Assembly: GCA_027036775.1 (NCBI GenBank)
Contig: JALWDS010000037.1
Location: 1-64,000, forward strand
Source of the DNA: Archaeoglobaceae archaeon
Lineage (GTDB): Archaea; Halobacteriota; Archaeoglobi; Archaeoglobales; Archaeoglobaceae
Length of the DNA: 64,000 nucleotides
Direction of reading: 5' to 3'
The notes under the pieces are model-generated. The model saw only the letters and a list, made by a program, of their open reading frames with translations, was not told the origin of the DNA and searched no databases. Within the stretch, counting starts at the first letter, position 1. Every line of letters starts with the position of its first letter. Below are positions 37,020 to 46,314 of this stretch, piece by piece. The translations under genes were made by a program, and so were the position numbers.

Positions 37020-38254
37020 ATGGAAGAAATAGACAGGCTCGTGAAAGATGTTGAAGAAGATATATAAAAAAGAATCTATTTTTAAGGAAAATTGGCTAAA
37101 ATATTTAGATTTTAATTACATTCCCAAGAATCCTAAGCACAGAGAAAAAGAGATAAAGAAAAGAGATAAAGAAAATTAGCATTAGACTAATAGAGAACAT
37201 AACGCAGAAATCGACTGGAAATCTTTTGATCTACGGAAATCCGGGAACGGGAAAGACCATGTCTTTTTTGATTGCAAAGAAGATTGCAGAGACAATTCTC
37301 TCTAAAAAGAGAGTAGAAAAGTATAAAATAATTTACGTGACTGCAGCAACTCCTAATTTTCCGAAAATCCTCTCGGAAATTTGCAAAGAGTTAGGTATTC
37401 AAGTTCCTACGAGGGGGCTGTCCCTAAGGGAGTATCTGAGTTATGTTAGCGAACTATCTAAAAACTGCTATCTTCACATCTGCATCGATGAGTTTGACAG
37501 ATTGCTTGAGAGTTCCAAACAGAAGAAGTATTCGGAAGACCTCCTCTACTACTTGACCTGAACTGAAAACATAAGTGCTACTCTAATAACCAATAAGATA
37601 GATTTAGCTAAGAGTATAACCGACGCAAGAGTTCTGAGTTCTCTTGATACCATTAATACAATCTTCTTCAAAGCGTATACGAAGGAGCAGTGTAGAGATA
37701 TTTTGTTAGAGAGAATTAAGTTGGCGTTTAAAGAGGGAGTATTTACAGACGAGGCTGTCGATACCTTGGCCGAACATGTAGCTGAGGAAGGGGGAGATAT
37801 CCGTAGTGGATTGTCTATATTAAAGTTCTGTGGAACTTACGCCGTCGAAAATGGAATTCGTCAAATTGATGGTAAACTCATGAAAGAGTTAATATGGAAA
37901 CATGACATACAAAAAGATGGAGAACTACTCATTGAAACACTTTCATATTCCGATAAACTCATCTTAGCAGCTTTGTATTCGCTACTATTGGAAACAAAGA
38001 GTAATTTCGTTTATTCTGGAGATGTATTTGCAAGGCAGGACTACTATAGAAAACTCCGTAGAGAGTCCTTTTCAGTCTATCTTACCAGATTATCTACTGC
38101 AGGTATAATAGAGGTCAAGAAAGTGTGGAAATCTAAGAAAGAGGGGTCTAGATCTTATATTTACTTAAAGTATCCTATCGATGCCGTGAGGTATATGCTT
38201 GAAAATGACCCATCTCTTTCTCCATTAATAGGGGCCTTAACTCTACAACCTTAA
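37020..38254 (+). pseudogene. Orc1/Cdc6-type replication initiator, disrupted
   Basis: Reads MEEIDRLVKDVEEDI, then NYIPKNPKHREKEIK, IYGNPGTGKT (Walker A), CIDEFDRLLE (Walker B), an ITNKIDLAKSITDARVLSS sensor/ISM region and a C-terminal winged helix. Lesions: a frame change near 37060-37070 after an in-frame TAA; a perfect 13-base duplication (GAGATAAAGAAAA at 37150-37162 and 37163-37175) shifting frame before the P-loop; a TGA at 37559-37561 in the middle of the AAA domain. A full protein cannot be made. It resembles plasmid/virus-type initiators more than the chromosomal one (inference). Confidence 0.8.
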
Positions 38255-38417: not shown

Positions 38418-38924
38418 TTAGTCTTTCATAATATTTTCAACGATTCTCCATATTTCGGGATACTTCTCTTTGATTGCTTCTTCAAGTAGTTTAGACGCTT
38501 CATGACTTATTGAAAATTCAGGAATAGTCTTTTTCAATATTCTTAGGACTACCGACGACTTTGGACTCCAAACTACTACTCGTGGATTTTTCTTTCCCTC
38601 TTCCAAAGCCCTTAACACGACACTGTTATCAATTTTTAACTTATCACTTATAACTGTTTCACTTATCATTTTTTCACTTATCTCAAATTCTTCATCACTC
38701 TCTAACTTATCACTTATCACTTCTTCACTTTTAATTTCACTTGCTTTTTCCTCTACCTCTTCTCTCGCCTTTAGTTCAGCTATACTTGTATCTTTTTCTA
38801 ATTGATCACTTATTGTTTTATCACTTTCTAACTTATCACTTACATTCTTATCAGTTATCACCCCTACACCCTCTCCTGAAAGTAAAGCCTCTAAACCTCT
38901 ACCAAGTCTTTTCTTACCATTCAA
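38418..38924 (-). CDS. ParB-like partner of ParA with ISDKL peptide repeats
   Basis: 168 residues. The N-terminus KKRLGRGLEALLSGEG is the ParA-activating motif at the start of ParB/Spo0J proteins. The ParB nuclease/CTP and HTH domains are absent. Residues 25-105 are repeats of the type VSDKLESD, ISDQLEKD, ISDKLESD, ISEKMISE and ISDKLKID, giving a charged helical linker. The C-terminal 60 residues form a compact domain (VVVWSPKSSVVLRILKKTIP). It overlaps parA by eleven bases. Role inferred: adaptor that stimulates ParA and binds DNA by an unknown means. Confidence 0.7.
   Translation of the reverse strand: MNGKKRLGRGLEALLSGEGVGVITDKNVSDKLESDKTISDQLEKDTSIAELKAREEVEEKASEIKSEEVISDKLESDEEFEISEKMISETVISDKLKIDNSVVLRALEEGKKNPRVVVWSPKSSVVLRILKKTIPEFSISHEASKLLEEAIKEKYPEIWRIVENIMKD
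38636..38862. repeat. CTTATCACTTATCAC-type repeats inside the ParB-like gene
   Basis: The plus strand repeatedly shows CTTATCAC / TTCACTTATC units (38638-38690, 38703-38720, 38810-38862), which encode the ISDKL repeats on the minus strand. The 17-base unit at 38703-38719 occurs as its exact reverse complement at 39726-39742, upstream of parA. Confidence 0.65.
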
Positions 38925-39669
38925 CGCTGTCCACCTCCTCAGCTAACTTTTTATAAGCAATAGCACCTTTACAATCAGGATCATAAAGGAGAATAGGCTT
39001 CCCATAGCTGGGGGTCTCAGCTAATCTAACATTCCTCGGAATTATAGTCTTAAACACTTTATCACCGAAATAATCCCTAAGCTGATTCGCCACATCATCG
39101 CAAATTCTAGTCCTCTTGTCGTACATCGTTATGAGAAACCTAATTTTGAGTGGAATTCTGAGCCTTCTTGTTATCAATTCAGCTGTTCTAAGAAGTTGAG
39201 CCAAACCTTCAAGTGCGTAATACTCTGCTTGAACGGGCACTAAGAGGTTTTCACAAGCTATCATAGCGTTAAGTGTCAAAACTCCAAGATTTGGTGGGGA
39301 ATCAACAATTAAGTAGTCGTATCCGTCTAAATCAGCTATTGCATCTCTTAATATGAACTCCCTTCCAACTTCATTCGACAGTTCAACCTCTGCTCCCGCT
39401 AAGTCCATGTTACTTGGAATTATATCTAAATTTTCAACTTGTGTCTTGACTATTACGTCTCTTATGCTACACTCACCAAGAAGAACGTCATAGATTGTCT
39501 TCTCGATTTTACTTTTGTCTATACCAATACCAGATGTCGCAGCGGATTGGGGGTCTATGTCTATCAAGAGAGTTTTCCTTCCCATTGAAGCCAAGTATGC
39601 TGAAAGATTGACAGCTGTAGTGGTTTTACCTACCCCACCCTTCTGATTACAAACACAGATCCTTTTCAT
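38914..39669 (-). CDS. parA: ParA/Soj-type partition ATPase
   Basis: 251 residues. Deviant Walker A QKGGVGKTTTAVNLS (10-24), LIDIDPQSAATSG (about 36-48) and Walker B-like DYLIVDSPPNLGVLTLNA (about 105-120). All the Soj-type residues for ATP-dependent dimerisation and nonspecific DNA binding are present and the frame is intact. It forms a two-gene unit with the ParB-like protein and sits beside a broken replication initiator, as on plasmids. It may now serve the chromosome or simply persist. Confidence 0.9.
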   Translation of the reverse strand: MKRICVCNQKGGVGKTTTAVNLSAYLASMGRKTLLIDIDPQSAATSGIGIDKSKIEKTIYDVLLGECSIRDVIVKTQVENLDIIPSNMDLAGAEVELSNEVGREFILRDAIADLDGYDYLIVDSPPNLGVLTLNAMIACENLLVPVQAEYYALEGLAQLLRTAELITRRLRIPLKIRFLITMYDKRTRICDDVANQLRDYFGDKVFKTIIPRNVRLAETPSYGKPILLYDPDCKGAIAYKKLAEEVDSVEW

Positions 39670-39780
39670 CAGATTATCACTTACAATTGATATACTTAAA
39701 ACTTATCAAATATTCATGCTTTCACTGATAAGTGATAAGTTATAATCGATTAACATTAAGCACTTAATAGAACTGAACTA
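39670..39780. promoter_or_regulatory. Repeat cluster upstream of parA, parS or operator candidate
   Basis: TGATAAGTGATAAGTTA at 39726-39742 is the inverted copy of 38703-38719 in the ParB-like gene. Shorter relatives, TTATCACTTA (39676-39685) and ACTTATCAAA (39701-39710), lie closer to the parA ATG. This suits a centromere-like or autorepression site. The rest of the 39670-39948 spacer is AT-rich and holds nothing else I can identify. Confidence 0.5.
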
Positions 39781-39948: not shown

Positions 39949-40974
39949 TTAAACCTTTATGTTTACCCAGCCTAAAGGCTTTTCATCTACCGTAACCTTC
40001 CTCGTCTTCGGAAATACGCTCGAAACCTTTTTTGTTTTCGGATTTTTACCTAACCCGAGTTTCGTTCTCAAATACTCGAATATGGGATGAGTTTTAAGCA
40101 ACAAGCCGATTGTCTTGGAATACCATCCTGTCCCCCACCCCAACCTTAAAACTATCCCTCTGCATCTCTTAACAGCTATAAACTCAGCTTTAGTCTTTTC
40201 AGAATAGTTATACTTAAGCTCAGCTTCGATCAAAGCCTCACTGAACTCCTTCGTTATTTCGGCAATCGTATCTACATCCTCAACCAACCATTTATATCTA
40301 CCGTTCAAATTCCTCAAAATGCTCTCATCAACATCAACCTCAACTTCAGCCTTACCACCATCTATACACTCAACACAGATACCAATTCCTCTGCTACCTA
40401 AAACCCTAACCTCGTAAACCCTGAGAGACCTGAAAGGCTTCGAATCCGCAATCCTCACTGCTCTCATAATGTCGTTTCTTGTGTTTCTCAACTCTTTTCC
40501 GAATACAATCCTTTCGAGTTCATCATCTGCTTCTTTTAAGATTTTACTCGTAACTCTTCCACGATTCCATGATATCTTGTTTTCCAAGCTTTTTATAGCA
40601 AAATCCAGAAGCCTTTTATCGTTCTTAACCGCATACCATAGCACTGCAGTTCTTATAGCCCCTTTAATCGAGCTACCCGGTATGTAGGGCTTGCCACCCG
40701 TTTTAATATGTTCTGAAATTTCACTTCTTACGGCACCGGTAAAAGGCAAAGCGTATTTTTTGAAGTTTTCAACGTCAATCCTTTCCTTATTGATCAACTC
40801 TTTAAGCTCAACTTTCGCAATATCGACCGCATCGTAGCCTTTCTCGATTAAGTAGCCGAACAGCTTGGGTGTATCGAGCATCACAACTCTATTACCCCTT
40901 ACTATAAAATCGAGATTCATCAAAAGTTTGTTTCCACTACCCACGTGAACCGGTGTGAGAACTTCAATCTCCAT
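39949..40974 (-). CDS. csm5: Type III-A CRISPR RAMP protein Csm5
   Basis: 341 residues. RAMP (Cas7-like) fold: EIEVLTPVHVGSGN at the start, KPYIPGSSIKGAIRTAVLW (glycine loop, about 95-113) and a C-terminal LRLGWGTGWYSKTIGLLL. It caps the 3' side of the Csm filament and is needed for crRNA maturation in studied systems. Overlaps csm4 by eleven bases. Last gene of the operon. Confidence 0.9.
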   Translation of the reverse strand: MEIEVLTPVHVGSGNKLLMNLDFIVRGNRVVMLDTPKLFGYLIEKGYDAVDIAKVELKELINKERIDVENFKKYALPFTGAVRSEISEHIKTGGKPYIPGSSIKGAIRTAVLWYAVKNDKRLLDFAIKSLENKISWNRGRVTSKILKEADDELERIVFGKELRNTRNDIMRAVRIADSKPFRSLRVYEVRVLGSRGIGICVECIDGGKAEVEVDVDESILRNLNGRYKWLVEDVDTIAEITKEFSEALIEAELKYNYSEKTKAEFIAVKRCRGIVLRLGWGTGWYSKTIGLLLKTHPIFEYLRTKLGLGKNPKTKKVSSVFPKTRKVTVDEKPLGWVNIKV

Positions 40975-41836
40975 ACTCCACCACCGCTGGAATCAAAAAC
41001 GACTTACCGTTAACGAAAACTTTGTGACCCACTTTAGCGGAAAATCCTTCGACGATTTCGTCCAAGTCTATAACCTTACCGTGCTCCACTTCACCGAACA
41101 CAGAGCCTTCGGAAGCCATTATGATTCTGGGCTTTCTGATCTGTTTGCCTCTCTTAGAAAAAGTCCAACCACCCCTAATTAACGGTTTCCAAAATGCTAC
41201 AGACCTCAAGTTCTGTGGAAAAACTACAGATAACGTAACGAACGCGTTCGAGTCTTTTGGTGTTTTCAAGCTAAAGTCCGTAAACTCGAACTCAAATCTA
41301 CCCAAACCCCAAGTTCTCTTACCTCCTATACCCTCATCAGATAGATATCTAAGGGCTAACTCGATCAGTCTTATGCCGTTCCCTTCCACTAAGAAGTAGA
41401 ACCCACCGTCGTCGAACTTCAGTAAGCTGACATAGTATATACTTGTGTTGGCGGTAACCCTATCTACAACAACCTTTGGTAGTTCGAACTCCTTGTAGGG
41501 CTTTTCTTTCTCACCCTCCCAGTTTACTTCATCGCAAATCAACAGCTCCTCGAATACATCCTTAGGCACTAAAGGATCGATCTTTTTCTTGTAGGGCTTA
41601 ACTGGAGCTGGTAGATAATATGTATCATTTCCAAATGGAAAAGCTGAAGAAAATCTAAGCTCTCCGTTGCTCACTTTCTCAACGAAATCTTCTACGTCCT
41701 CGTTTAAATCTGCTAGAGCATTTGCTGTAGCACTAAACAGAGTGTCGGAGTGTATAACTTCTGAAACTCCTTCTAATCCTATTCCTGTATCTCCAACCCT
41801 AACGGGAGTTTTGAACTTAAGCTTAAAAGCCTTCAT
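40964..41836 (-). CDS. csm4: Type III-A CRISPR RAMP protein Csm4 (Cas5-like)
   Basis: 290 residues. KLKFKTPVRVGDTGIGLEGVSE and IHSDTLFSATANAL are the Csm4 N-terminus; GIGGKRTWGLGRFEFEF is the glycine-rich loop near 190. It binds the 5' repeat handle of crRNA and contacts Cas10. It overlaps csm3 by four bases. Confidence 0.9.
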   Translation of the reverse strand: MKAFKLKFKTPVRVGDTGIGLEGVSEVIHSDTLFSATANALADLNEDVEDFVEKVSNGELRFSSAFPFGNDTYYLPAPVKPYKKKIDPLVPKDVFEELLICDEVNWEGEKEKPYKEFELPKVVVDRVTANTSIYYVSLLKFDDGGFYFLVEGNGIRLIELALRYLSDEGIGGKRTWGLGRFEFEFTDFSLKTPKDSNAFVTLSVVFPQNLRSVAFWKPLIRGGWTFSKRGKQIRKPRIIMASEGSVFGEVEHGKVIDLDEIVEGFSAKVGHKVFVNGKSFLIPAVVEYGD

Positions 41837-42642
41837 GCTCCGAAGATTTCGTTAAACTTTTCTAATATGTCTGATACCTTAATCTCTCCATTCTGAGCAA
41901 GTAAAACCTTCTCAGCTTCTTTGTTGCCGAAGTAGTATTCCCTTGTCCTCTCAATTACGCTTGTGATAAAGATTTCAACCTTTCCGTATCCCCTCGAACC
42001 AGAACCGCCTAAGTAATCGTCTTCAAGCATCTTCATAGCACTGAAGAGATTCTTTAAATCCACGTTTTTAGCATCCTCATCTTCAACGTTGTAAACGATC
42101 TCGAATTCGAACTCTACACCCGGCGGAACTCTCTCCATTGGCCTCGGGTTTGCAGCTGATGTAATTCTATCTATGGCTGTTTCGTATTTAATTTCAACAA
42201 TATCTTCCTCGCTCTCTCTAAATTTTTCTGTTACAAATGCATCTCTAACCAAGACTCTTGCGGGGAAGTTGTCACCCTTTTTTTGACCACTTGTTCCAAA
42301 GAGCCTACAAATTTCACAATTCTTAATTTCATTATAGCTCTTATCACAAGCGTGTATCCACATTTCGGGTTTATCCTTTATTTTCCTATTGAAGAATTTA
42401 TCTTCTCCGTACCCTCTTTTTTCAAGTGGTTGTTCGGCATTTTTTGCCTTTTCAAGTAACGATCTAAGCTTACCCTTTAAAGATGAGCCAGGGATGTAAG
42501 GTAAACCTGTTATAGGGTCTTTTATGACCGGATTATCTATTCCACCAATTTCCATCGTTTCTCTTTGTGCACCAATATGTAAACCTGTTTTTAGCCTAAT
42601 CTTTCCTCTAACTATAATCTTACCGATAATAACATCACCCAT
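41833..42642 (-). CDS. csm3: Type III-A CRISPR backbone RNase Csm3 (Cas7)
   Basis: 269 residues from ATG 42642 (MGDVIIGKIIVRGKIRLKTG). The Shine-Dalgarno GGAGGTGAT at the end of csm2 places this start; a GTG nine bases earlier lies inside the SD itself. IGGIDNPVIKDPITGLPYIP includes the Asp expected for target RNA cleavage every six bases; PGSSLKGKLRSLLE and GSRGYGKVEI are RAMP loops. CEICRLFGTSG is the zinc/Cys region of the family. Confidence 0.95.
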   Translation of the reverse strand: MGDVIIGKIIVRGKIRLKTGLHIGAQRETMEIGGIDNPVIKDPITGLPYIPGSSLKGKLRSLLEKAKNAEQPLEKRGYGEDKFFNRKIKDKPEMWIHACDKSYNEIKNCEICRLFGTSGQKKGDNFPARVLVRDAFVTEKFRESEEDIVEIKYETAIDRITSAANPRPMERVPPGVEFEFEIVYNVEDEDAKNVDLKNLFSAMKMLEDDYLGGSGSRGYGKVEIFITSVIERTREYYFGNKEAEKVLLAQNGEIKVSDILEKFNEIFGA

Positions 42643-42643
42643 T

Positions 42644-43192
42644 TCAATCACCTCCTCCCAAAAACTTGTGGTATGCTACAATAGCTTGAAGAAATTCGTG
42701 AAAGATTTCGTAATTCTCAGTAGTCAGCTTTGGGAGAATTTTATCTGAGACTTCAAGAATTGGTGTTACTGGATCGCTTTTTTTGGTTTTGTGTCTTGAA
42801 GCTGTGTAGGCAAGGATATATCTCATTTTTGCAGTCTCTGAACTAATATCTCTCAGCTTTCCTATTTTGATTTCTCTGGAGATTCTATTAGACATACTCA
42901 GAATCTTTCTTATCTGGGTTGTTTTCATGTTTTCAACAACTGTTGTCTTAACGGCAAGAATGAATGCCATTTTAAGTCTTTCTTCTGGAGACAGCTCTAA
43001 AAATTGCTCACTTTTCTCTTTAATGTTTTTAAAAGCTTCATCGATTAAATCTTTAAGTTGCTTTTCGATCTTCTCAGCTTCATTAAATCTTTTATTACGT
43101 CTTAGCTCGTTGATTTTCTGTTTTATATCTGTTATCACCCGTTCCACTTCTACAAATTCGCCTTTTTCGAGCAAATCTTTCAAATTCTCCAC
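42644..43192 (-). CDS. csm2: Type III-A CRISPR small subunit Csm2
   Basis: 182 residues, all helical. The C-terminal segment MRYILAYTASRHKT and FLQAIVAYHKFLGGGD are the Csm2 signature. The N-terminal 70 residues are a charged coiled-coil-like extension (EVERVITDIKQKINELRRNK) that appears longer than in most Csm2 proteins. It lines the target RNA groove. Its final GGD codons double as the ribosome binding site of csm3. Confidence 0.9.
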   Translation of the reverse strand: MENLKDLLEKGEFVEVERVITDIKQKINELRRNKRFNEAEKIEKQLKDLIDEAFKNIKEKSEQFLELSPEERLKMAFILAVKTTVVENMKTTQIRKILSMSNRISREIKIGKLRDISSETAKMRYILAYTASRHKTKKSDPVTPILEVSDKILPKLTTENYEIFHEFLQAIVAYHKFLGGGD

Positions 43193-43196
43193 AAAA

Positions 43197-45644
43197 TCAC
43201 CCCCTTATAGCCAAATCAACAATCCTCAAAGGACAGTCAATAAAGTAAATCTCCTGAGGTTCTCCACTTTTAACCTTATTAACATCCCTCTTAGTCAAAT
43301 CACAAAAAACATCGATTAAATTAGCCCTTGAGAGGTGATAGATTAGAGAAATGTGCCATTTCAATCCTCTCGGATTCTGAACGTATTTCTCCCTTGCCTC
43401 CAATATCTTTCGCAAAATAGCCCTACTAACGTTAAGTTTACACTCACCGTTCTCGAACTTGTAGACTTTGGGTATATACTTGTTCCAGATTGCCTTAAAC
43501 TCGTCCCATCTGTAAGATACTTTATGCGTTTTTCTGAACTCTTCAGGCGTATTTTTGTTGGGTGTAGATCTATCGAACAACATTATTCGATCTTTAATTT
43601 TGATTTCCTCAGTTTTTCCAGATATCTTCACCTTTCTAACTTCTCCTTCTTTCTTAGCCCTTTCATCAAGCCTCTTTCTTACGATTTCTGCCATCCTGTA
43701 TAGCGGATACTTCGGATCGAAAATGGCAAATCCAGCGGAGATCGTTAAATTGGGGTTCCAGCCTACATATTCACCGAACAATTCTCTAATTTCGAAAGCG
43801 ATCTCGAAAACGTCGTTCCAAGCACCCACCATAAAAAGATCGTCACCGCCAGAATAGACAACTACCAAGTTCCTCTCACCCCTATCTGTAAGCTTAGGTA
43901 AGCTCTTATCTTCCAAAATATCTACGACATGTGCATCTCTTTCAGCTATCAACCTTATACAGTTCTTGAAGAAGTGGCTCATGAACCTTGAGAGCGTAGC
44001 ATATCTCGACAGAGACTTCATATTTTCGGGCAATCCCTTCGAAAATATCCTACCCAAGTTGTCCACATCCATCTTCAAGACCGCTATCTTCTCAACACCT
44101 ACGGATTCTTTGCTCAATTCGTCAAAGTTCTTAATAATTCCGTAGTCGTTGGTTACAACGTAATCCGAAACGAAGTATGGGATCGTTTTGCGTTCGATAA
44201 ACGTATCTCCCAAGCCGAACGAGTTTTTCACAAATATTAAAGCTCCTTTGGGTATGTCCTGAATGTTTCTATCGATCTCATATATACCGTAAAATACCGA
44301 GAACGGTAGTTCTATGGATGGGTATTTATCTTCTAAATCCTCATCTCGATGCCATCTAACGAAAGCGTCTATTCTCGGTAAGTCCTTACCAAGCCTGAGT
44401 AGGTCTCTACATATCTTACAAACTTCTAAATCATCTTCTTTAAATTTTTCGGGCACGTAAAACTTGCAAACCTCGCACGAAAACTCGTTCTTGGAATAAT
44501 CTTTTTCGTAGAGATCCGAGCTGTTATGTAGTATGTCGAGGAACTTTCTGCTCTTGGCGATCTTGAGCCTTTTTCCAATTACCTCCCAGATTGACTTATC
44601 ACCTATTTTAAGGTTTGTTAGGTTTTCACCACTCAATTCGACGTAATCTATCGCCAAGTAAAGCTTACACTTGAACTTGTCGAATAGCCACTTGTTAACC
44701 TTCGTTCGTATATCCTCAATAGTCTTTTTGACCTCTTCCGTGTTGGGTGCGAGTATGTAGAAATGCCCACCACCGCAGTAGATTACGTTAGCTCGTGTAA
44801 GCCTTAACCTTTCAACTATCTCAGCAACGACGTCTTCACTCAGCAGTTCGAGATAAGCAGATCTGGCTCTAAGATACTTCAAAGCACCTTTGCTCGAAAC
44901 CGTGTATATGAAATCCTGAATACCCGACACGTCTCCTCCGATTAGTAGGTATTTTTTCTCTTTCCTGTCGAAAATCCTATCTTTTATGTCTTCATCGAGC
45001 CCGTTCTTGTGATAGAGATACGTGCAGAGTGCAATGGCTGAGGTAGTTCTCAAGTGATCGTAGAGGGATATGTCGTTCCCTTCACCCATCATTGAGGGTA
45101 TAAAAGTAGTGTATCTTTCGAGCAAAGCCAAAATCTTATCGAAGTCTAAGTTACCTCTAACCAATCTTACGAAATCTTCTCTAAAATTCTCGTATAAGGC
45201 ACGATACTTTTTCTGAGTTATTAGCGGTTTTTCCTTTGTTGGATAGAAGAATTCATTTGGATCGTATTCTTTTAAATCGTAGTAAACCGTTTCTGGATTA
45301 CCTATCCCCAAGTTTACGGACGAAAAGATCGATGTTAGAGGATTTCCAAACTGCGGTTTTTCTTTAATTCTCTCAGATGCGGAGATGCTGTCGGCTTTGC
45401 ACACAATCCACAGCATGTTCATTAACCTAACGTCGTCGATCTTTAGAACGTTTAGGCTGTCCTTGTGGTGATAACCCGCAAAGTAAGCGAGTTTTTTGAA
45501 TATGGGGTTTACATCCTTAAGACCGTATAGGAAATCGTAACCCCATTCTTCGTGAGTTCTCTTTTCATCCCAATTAGCCCTTTGAACGAACTTTCCAATG
45601 TCGTGAAGCAAGCCACCCAATGCGACGAGTATGGCTTCGCTCAT
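43197..45644 (-). CDS. cas10: Type III-A CRISPR Cas10/Csm1 with HD and GGDD domains
   Basis: 815 residues. N-terminal HD nuclease (LLHDIGK, His14-Asp15) for ssDNA; a first palm-like domain (about 230-345); zinc ribbon CEVC / CKIC (about 390-412); the cyclase palm with VYSGGDDLF (GGDD about 599-602); a helical C-terminus. Both catalytic motifs are intact, so cyclic oligoadenylate synthesis and DNA cleavage are predicted upon target RNA binding. A gap of only four bases separates it from the CARF-HTH gene. Confidence 0.95.
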   Translation of the reverse strand: MSEAILVALGGLLHDIGKFVQRANWDEKRTHEEWGYDFLYGLKDVNPIFKKLAYFAGYHHKDSLNVLKIDDVRLMNMLWIVCKADSISASERIKEKPQFGNPLTSIFSSVNLGIGNPETVYYDLKEYDPNEFFYPTKEKPLITQKKYRALYENFREDFVRLVRGNLDFDKILALLERYTTFIPSMMGEGNDISLYDHLRTTSAIALCTYLYHKNGLDEDIKDRIFDRKEKKYLLIGGDVSGIQDFIYTVSSKGALKYLRARSAYLELLSEDVVAEIVERLRLTRANVIYCGGGHFYILAPNTEEVKKTIEDIRTKVNKWLFDKFKCKLYLAIDYVELSGENLTNLKIGDKSIWEVIGKRLKIAKSRKFLDILHNSSDLYEKDYSKNEFSCEVCKFYVPEKFKEDDLEVCKICRDLLRLGKDLPRIDAFVRWHRDEDLEDKYPSIELPFSVFYGIYEIDRNIQDIPKGALIFVKNSFGLGDTFIERKTIPYFVSDYVVTNDYGIIKNFDELSKESVGVEKIAVLKMDVDNLGRIFSKGLPENMKSLSRYATLSRFMSHFFKNCIRLIAERDAHVVDILEDKSLPKLTDRGERNLVVVYSGGDDLFMVGAWNDVFEIAFEIRELFGEYVGWNPNLTISAGFAIFDPKYPLYRMAEIVRKRLDERAKKEGEVRKVKISGKTEEIKIKDRIMLFDRSTPNKNTPEEFRKTHKVSYRWDEFKAIWNKYIPKVYKFENGECKLNVSRAILRKILEAREKYVQNPRGLKWHISLIYHLSRANLIDVFCDLTKRDVNKVKSGEPQEIYFIDCPLRIVDLAIRG

Positions 45645-45648
45645 GGTA

Positions 45649-46314
45649 TCACCTTGACCATCTGGCTTTACAGAGCTTGCCGAGAAAAGTTAGTCTGTAT
45701 CTTTTCACCTTTCCATTTAATACCTCTAAAAGACCGTATTCCTTCAGCTCTCTTAGGTATTGAGATGCGGTTTTCTTGCTGATGCGTAGTTTCTCCGCAA
45801 TCTCTGCCGAGCTATCGCCATCCTCTAAAACTCTTATGACCTCCTTTTTGACTTTAGAAAGCTGGTCGAACTGTGCCAAGTTGTAGGGTATCTCAACTAA
45901 TTCGGCACCGTCTTTCAACTCCTGGACGTATATGATCTTGCATCCCGATATGAAGGAGGCACAAGATACTGCTATGGATTGAACTTTGGTTCCACCCGTA
46001 ACGTTTACGTAAACATCTCCCAAAGTCTTTACCTCCACGAGAATCTTTAATGTTTCGATACAGCATTCTTCGAAGTTGAAGGGATCGACGACTCTAATCT
46101 CTACATCCGCTCCGAAACTCTCCAACTTCGTTTTAATCTCTTCAGCGACTTCAACGGGATTGGGTTTACCCTTTACCGCTTTATCTCCGAATACTTCCTT
46201 TGCGGGCTTTCCCGGTATAAGAATGACTTTATCAAAGCCGATCTTTCTTGCGGATATAAGAATGGGTTCAGCAGTTCCACCCACAGTTGCTACGAGAATT
46301 TTCACGTCCAACAT
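45649..46314 (-). CDS. CARF-domain winged-helix regulator (Csa3-like)
   Basis: 221 residues. N-terminal CARF Rossmann-like domain (ILVATVGGTAEPILISARKIG; YVNVTGGTKVQSIAVSCAS near 105-123 is the ligand-pocket loop). The C-terminal winged HTH is DGDSSAEIAEKLRISKKTAS and onward. There is no HEPN or other nuclease domain. It is first in the csm operon, upstream of cas10. Proteins of this build sense cyclic oligoadenylate or similar ligands and control transcription; here it may link Cas10 signalling to cas or array expression. Confidence 0.85.
   Translation of the reverse strand: MLDVKILVATVGGTAEPILISARKIGFDKVILIPGKPAKEVFGDKAVKGKPNPVEVAEEIKTKLESFGADVEIRVVDPFNFEECCIETLKILVEVKTLGDVYVNVTGGTKVQSIAVSCASFISGCKIIYVQELKDGAELVEIPYNLAQFDQLSKVKKEVIRVLEDGDSSAEIAEKLRISKKTASQYLRELKEYGLLEVLNGKVKRYRLTFLGKLCKARWSR

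Follow-up and report, generated by a model that had tools for sequence, protein, structure and literature searches.

Can the DNA that encodes the peptide repeats of a small partition protein serve at the same time as the cluster of sites that the protein binds? The question is raised by a minus-strand gene pair in the window (the whole stretch of 64,000 nucleotides that was analysed), in which a ParA-type ATPase gene and a small gene, named segA and segB below, overlap by 11 nt. An earlier reading made from the letters alone (the sequence-only reading) had reported that 17 ISDKL-coding bases of the small gene recur exactly, inverted, before the ATPase gene, with shorter variants nearby, and we confirmed both coordinates and sequence: over 17 bp, TAACTTATCACTTATCA (38703-38719) and TGATAAGTGATAAGTTA (39726-39742) are 100% complementary. 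Related copies lie at 38634-38656, 38826-38842 and 39674-39690 (variants of 23 bp at 87% and 17 bp at 94%). The 13-mer ACTTATCACTTAT is present in exactly three copies in the 1.53-Mb genome, two in the segB linker and one upstream of segA; the reversed-pattern control gave 0 occurrences over the whole genome. The features are collected in Table 1.

Table 1. Features of the gene pair and its surroundings, in positions of the window.
Feature	Positions	Strand	Description	Basis or remark
segA	38914..39669	-	ParA-type Walker ATPase, 251 aa, KGGVGKTT intact	Pfam AAA_31 3e-63; PDB ParA/Soj 5e-77; archaeal Soj/SegA 7dut 4e-21
segB	38418..38924	-	168-aa SegB homologue, TTG start	profile of 4 homologues; homologues at same position relative to segA
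Codons 1-15 of segB	38880..38924	-	putative ParA-contact motif GRGLEALL (residues 8-15)	sequence; function by analogy with ParB N-terminal peptide (PMC12462528)
Linker-coding array	38589..38888	-	proposed SegB sites; test region begins at codon 13	ten AAGTGA words, four AAGTGATAAG
C-terminal domain of SegB	38418..38588	-	homologous to SegB ribbon-helix-helix DNA-binding domain	zero AAGTGA words
Candidate upstream site 1	39726..39742	+	TGATAAGTGATAAGTTA	made of two 7-bp units; orientation opposite to coding copies
Candidate upstream site 2	39674..39690	-	TGTAAGTGATAA	immediately before segA start; likely operator position
Weaker related stretch	39695..39709	-	TGATAAGTTTTAAG	beside putative TATA box; promoter assigned by eye
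orc1/cdc6 initiator gene, broken	37100..38254	+	approximate start	Pfam Cdc6_lid, Cdc6_C; NCBIfam TIGR02928; three-frame translation

As a single query, the 168-aa protein gave nothing above the cut-off in Pfam or NCBIfam, ParB families included, and the hallmarks of ParABS systems (the ParB CTPase/Srx domain and the HTH domain) had no match in it in either collection. A profile built on this protein and three homologues, taken from its own genome and two relatives, matched two crystal structures of archaeal SegB by hmmsearch, 7duv_A (E=1.7e-12) and 7dv2_A (1.5e-10). SegA-SegB systems have been described in archaea, where they occur in many genera, and their DNA-binding partner is a ribbon-helix-helix (RHH) protein; segA overlaps segB, the RHH domain of SegB is C-terminal, its N-terminus is unstructured and sites lie upstream of segA (PMC5120986, PMC12284271). 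In the window, segA has an intact Walker motif and lies directly upstream of segB, and the profile match identifies the latter, by sequence, as a SegB homologue with an RHH domain. As one gene matches SegB structures and the other is of the ParA/Soj type, the pair is therefore assigned from its sequence to the SegA-SegB systems.

The sequence-only reading had held that the gene keeps only a ParA-stimulating motif, and that a partition system without canonical ParB would be new. Neither claim survives: the ~60 C-terminal residues form a SegB-homologous DNA-binding domain, and the system is of a known kind. A degenerate ParB, reduced to a ParA-stimulating peptide and devoid of a DNA-binding domain of its own, would account for the resemblance of GRGLEALL to the N-terminal ParA-binding motif of ParB (such a motif is found in PMC12462528), but the match of the C-terminal domain to SegB structures (E=1.7e-12) refutes this model and the Pfam and NCBIfam searches returned no ParB family for the protein; we give it virtually no weight. 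The motif has counterparts in homologues (GKGLDALI, GKGIDALL, GRGLDALI) and, at the same position in Sulfolobales, of the SELDFLL type. A histone-like C-terminus, considered by eye, was dropped in favour of SegB. In an AF2 model of the window SegB, too weak to show a fold (mean pLDDT 51; below 50 for residues 17-96), residues 17-96 have no structure, GRGLEALL forms a short helix and further helices lie at the C-terminus; the linker is predicted to be disordered.

To quantify the likeness between linker and upstream DNA, 9-mers shared on both strands with one mismatch allowed were counted between the linker-coding DNA and the 220 bp that precede segA. Each count was set against 300 synonymous recodings per locus that followed local codon usage, which puts the floor of the test at p=1/301. 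The window linker shares 215 such words, against 47 ± 18 (maximum 99) under synonymous recoding and 132 ± 18 when codons are shuffled within the linker; segA coding DNA, used as a control in the same test, was at chance. AAGTGA occurs 10 times in the linker when 0.8 are expected under synonymous recoding (maximum 4 in 2000), and AAGTGATAAG 4 times when 0.1 are expected, whereas the word is absent from the RHH-coding and segA-coding parts of the locus. Of the linker Ser codons, 12/13 are AGT, when the share of this codon across the window is 17% (binomial P 6e-9), a bias that speaks for DNA-level constraint or recent duplication. Since nearly all AAGTGA words share one frame (9/10, the other lying in a second frame in which EVI stands beside ISD) and are mostly spaced by 15 nt, in-frame duplication contributes to the array, and the repeat copies inside one linker are not independent. 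These data show that the linker DNA is constrained beyond what the protein requires.

We then asked how the design is distributed among relatives. SegA was found (E<1e-40) in just 4/59 genomes of the class, and SegAB is therefore sporadic there; a contig scan of genomes with query A1 found nothing. SegB homologues were gathered from the phylum, from Sulfolobales and from one virus-collection contig (L035/L083). Besides the window, nine other SegB loci share words between linker and upstream DNA far above the level of synonymous recoding, all at p=1/301: L083 (226 vs 58 expected), L041 (411 vs 55), L042 (290 vs 80), L103 (170 vs 25), L107 (305 vs 28), L105 (56 vs 15), L108 (47 vs 14), L047 (34 vs 10) and L036 (54 vs 14), among which L105/L108 and L041/L042 are related pairs, not independent. 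Loci L038, L104 and L110 gave p=0.007-0.02, and the test was negative for L037, L039 and L040, whose linkers lack such repeats. Upstream of segA, stretches related to site 1 are found in G065 (TTTCACTTATCACTTATAAC) and G011 (AACTTATCACTGATCA), and both share with the window a 7-bp-phased motif there that marks candidate sites. Synonymous drift of the coding repeats in relatives, named in the sequence-only reading as evidence against a double use, was not what we found: pS was lower for the linker than for segA in 8/8 pairs, a weak result, from short alignments and seen alike in pairs without sites, that gives a hint of constraint.

The same design recurs with other motifs. The shared words are CACTTAT/AAGTGAT in the window group, CTAAAGG in L083, TTAAGAC/CTTAAGT in L041/L042, GAAGTAC in L105/L108 and TAGAGTC in L103/L107; in the last two loci, the word of both linker and upstream region is TCTAGA-S-TCTAGA, the Sulfolobus SegB motif established by ChIP-seq and footprinting (PMC12284271). 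The window uses another word and lacks this consensus, which comes from Sulfolobales and is not shown to define the family; its absence was not taken as an exclusion because degeneracy of the SegB motif is noted for Euryarchaeota (PMC12284271). When each linker was scored against each upstream region, the highest score mostly fell within its own motif group. For the window linker (L084), the scores were 8.7 against its own upstream region, 8.2 against the L037 region with the same word, and ~0 against the TAGAGTC group; own-group scores were 9.2 for L083, 11-20 for L041/L042 and 14-17 for L103/L107, with low scores against most other groups. The cross-group matches that are left (7.4 for the L104 linker and 9.5 for the L041 linker, both with the window upstream region) probably reflect similar AT-rich words. 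A 7-bp period runs through the upstream regions and most of these linkers, and equals the spacing within Sulfolobus TCTAGA-S-TCTAGA (PMC12284271). The L041 word is present in 22 copies when 2.0 are expected, in four frame/strand combinations that encode 15 peptides, and the word of L103 and L107 likewise uses both strands and more than one frame, a pattern that in-frame protein repeats cannot produce.

These observations bear on the explanation that only the protein repeats matter: the linker would have grown by in-frame slippage, ISDKL units would be spacer or interaction motifs, and the upstream likeness would be a by-product of a seed sequence that came from the upstream DNA, with no present role for the DNA itself. 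The single frame of 9/10 window words and the common 15-nt spacing fit with it, as does Metallosphaera, where the tandem repeats of SegB are read as a beta-helix domain (PMC12284271) and the known motif is not written in their codons. However, the match is lost on codon shuffling within the linker too, the RHH and segA coding parts have no words, slippage in frame cannot give the mixture of strands and frames in which the word lies in relatives, and a different linker word goes with a correspondingly different upstream site across four or more motif groups. We consider this explanation improbable.

In Sulfolobales, the test for the known motif gave a mixed result: L070, L076, L074/L075 and L078 were positive, L082 depends on the scoring, the S. 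solfataricus-like linkers L066-L069 have no known-motif sites, and the known motif is absent from the Metallosphaera-type repeats L079-L081. The 14-aa Metallosphaera repeats were considered as copies of the known motif and rejected: VESRV could encode it, but the actual codons do not; words in common between these repeats and upstream DNA were weakly positive. Where the linker has no array, sites were found elsewhere. In the paralogue L040/L002, the linker is without sites and a dense 7-bp-phased CTACGAT array lies wholly upstream, where lag 7 gives 24 five-base matches vs 0.3 expected, and in L037/L011 the window word is found ahead of segA and again in the 30 bp that separate segA from segB. 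Because of these two placements, the data fit with an array that is needed but free in its location.

Several side observations were made on these loci. L040/L002 is a second SegAB of the window genome (contig C6, near 42-43 kb) and adjoins an orc1/cdc6-like gene. SegB has two tandem RHH-type domains in L041, L042, L110 and L045. The L102 linker, in a fragment without upstream segA, has MSHESRV repeats (CATGAGTCATGAGTC), and a small conserved protein (~100 aa, ...EFIxDW...KKGEWK...) adjoins segA/segB in two relatives (L003 802-1107, L014 1113-1457). One archaeal SegB match was obtained in a plasmid scan, near 163220 of the 164-kb Methanohalobium plasmid NC_014254.1; the SegB family occurs on plasmids too. 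In the SegA plasmid scan, only generic bacterial ParA was found among the best matches. Directly beyond segA, the minus strand at 39949-46314 has likely type III CRISPR RAMP and Cas10-like genes (ORFs, by eye).

Taken together, we favour, with a probability of about 0.7, a SegAB operon whose SegB spacer is written in candidate SegB sites, the same DNA being used as protein code and as binding site. The dual use proposed in the sequence-only reading gains support from the tests of synonymous constraint on the window linker and from relatives in which the design recurs with other motifs, while its ParB label is lost. The C-terminal RHH domain of SegB would bind 7-bp-phased AAGTGAT/ATCACTT units both ahead of segA and within segB itself, where the array would encode the disordered spacer that joins the SegA-contact motif to the RHH domain. 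The gene could house the array because the spacer would tolerate almost any sequence, its residues following the DNA word. We infer that the window SegB binds these units and bridges them, and that the clusters act as centromere and in repression: bound clusters ~1 kb apart would form the partition complex and probably also repress the operon, and the N-terminal GRGLEALL motifs would recruit DNA-bound SegA, moving the replicon. The SegB of Sulfolobus bridges its sites, the majority of which are intragenic, and loops the intervening DNA, and in S. acidocaldarius intragenic sites also lie within segAB (PMC12284271).

An operator instead of a centromere is possible, though we rate it as less likely: from its upstream and intragenic sites, SegB would repress the operon by looping or by blocking transcription, with partition using other chromosomal sites or lost. 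Site 2 at the segA start, site 1 just upstream of the putative TATA box, the confinement of the motif to the locus, when Sulfolobus sites are scattered, and the broken orc1 neighbour are all compatible with this. Ten intragenic words nevertheless exceed the need of an operator, SegA is intact though without obvious use in plain autoregulation, and in Sulfolobus the SegB sites cluster near segAB, whose deletion impairs segregation (PMC12284271). The operator and centromere roles are not exclusive. The orc1/cdc6 gene, which points towards segB, has a frameshift near its N-terminus and an in-frame stop near 37560; its broken state beside segB suggests a decayed origin or integrated plasmid, and the window system may be a relic of the latter.

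Whether the design holds across archaea we consider an even bet: the SegB spacer would be a dual-coding centromere inside the gene of its binder, with residues that are a by-product of the site array, a word and spacer that co-evolve, and the whole forming a self-contained, easily mobile partition cassette. The system itself is known; in the literature searched, the double use was not found described as a recurrent property, nor was a link between intragenic SegB sites and the Metallosphaera SegB repeats found in the main text of PMC12284271. SegAB centromere sites are poorly defined outside Sulfolobales, and segB linkers would yield candidate motifs for many genomes. The double use would also offer a possible account of the repeats of SegB spacers, which are puzzling and change fast, and paired proteins and DNA words that form a natural series for following shifts in RHH specificity.

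The window system resembles SegAB of Saccharolobus solfataricus and other Sulfolobales in the segA-segB overlap, the ParA-type ATPase, the disordered SegB N-terminus and the RHH C-terminus, and its candidate sites resemble theirs in lying upstream of segA and within genes, with a 7-bp half-site spacing (PMC12284271). As in the window, the 14-aa tandem repeats of Metallosphaera SegB sit between the N-terminus and the RHH domain; in contrast to our reading, they are published as a beta-helix protein domain (PMC12284271). The window differs from Sulfolobales SegAB by its word, CACTTAT and not TCTAGA-S-TCTAGA, by sites confined to the locus, by the dense array in the segB linker and by an N-terminal GRGLEALL that is closer to bacterial ParB. 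In Bacillus subtilis, Lin and Grossman reportedly located in 1998 a parS inside spo0J (parB), a centromere site in the gene of its binder; unlike the window array, this is a single site, without coding repeats, and the protein is unrelated. In phage lambda, the sites bound by O encode the interdomain linker of O. The lambda origin is an array of these sites inside gene O (PMC5043065), although O is an unrelated protein and the array serves a replication initiator and origin, not partition. With this type, in which sites lie inside the gene of their binder, the window linker shares a constraint on DNA beyond protein coding.
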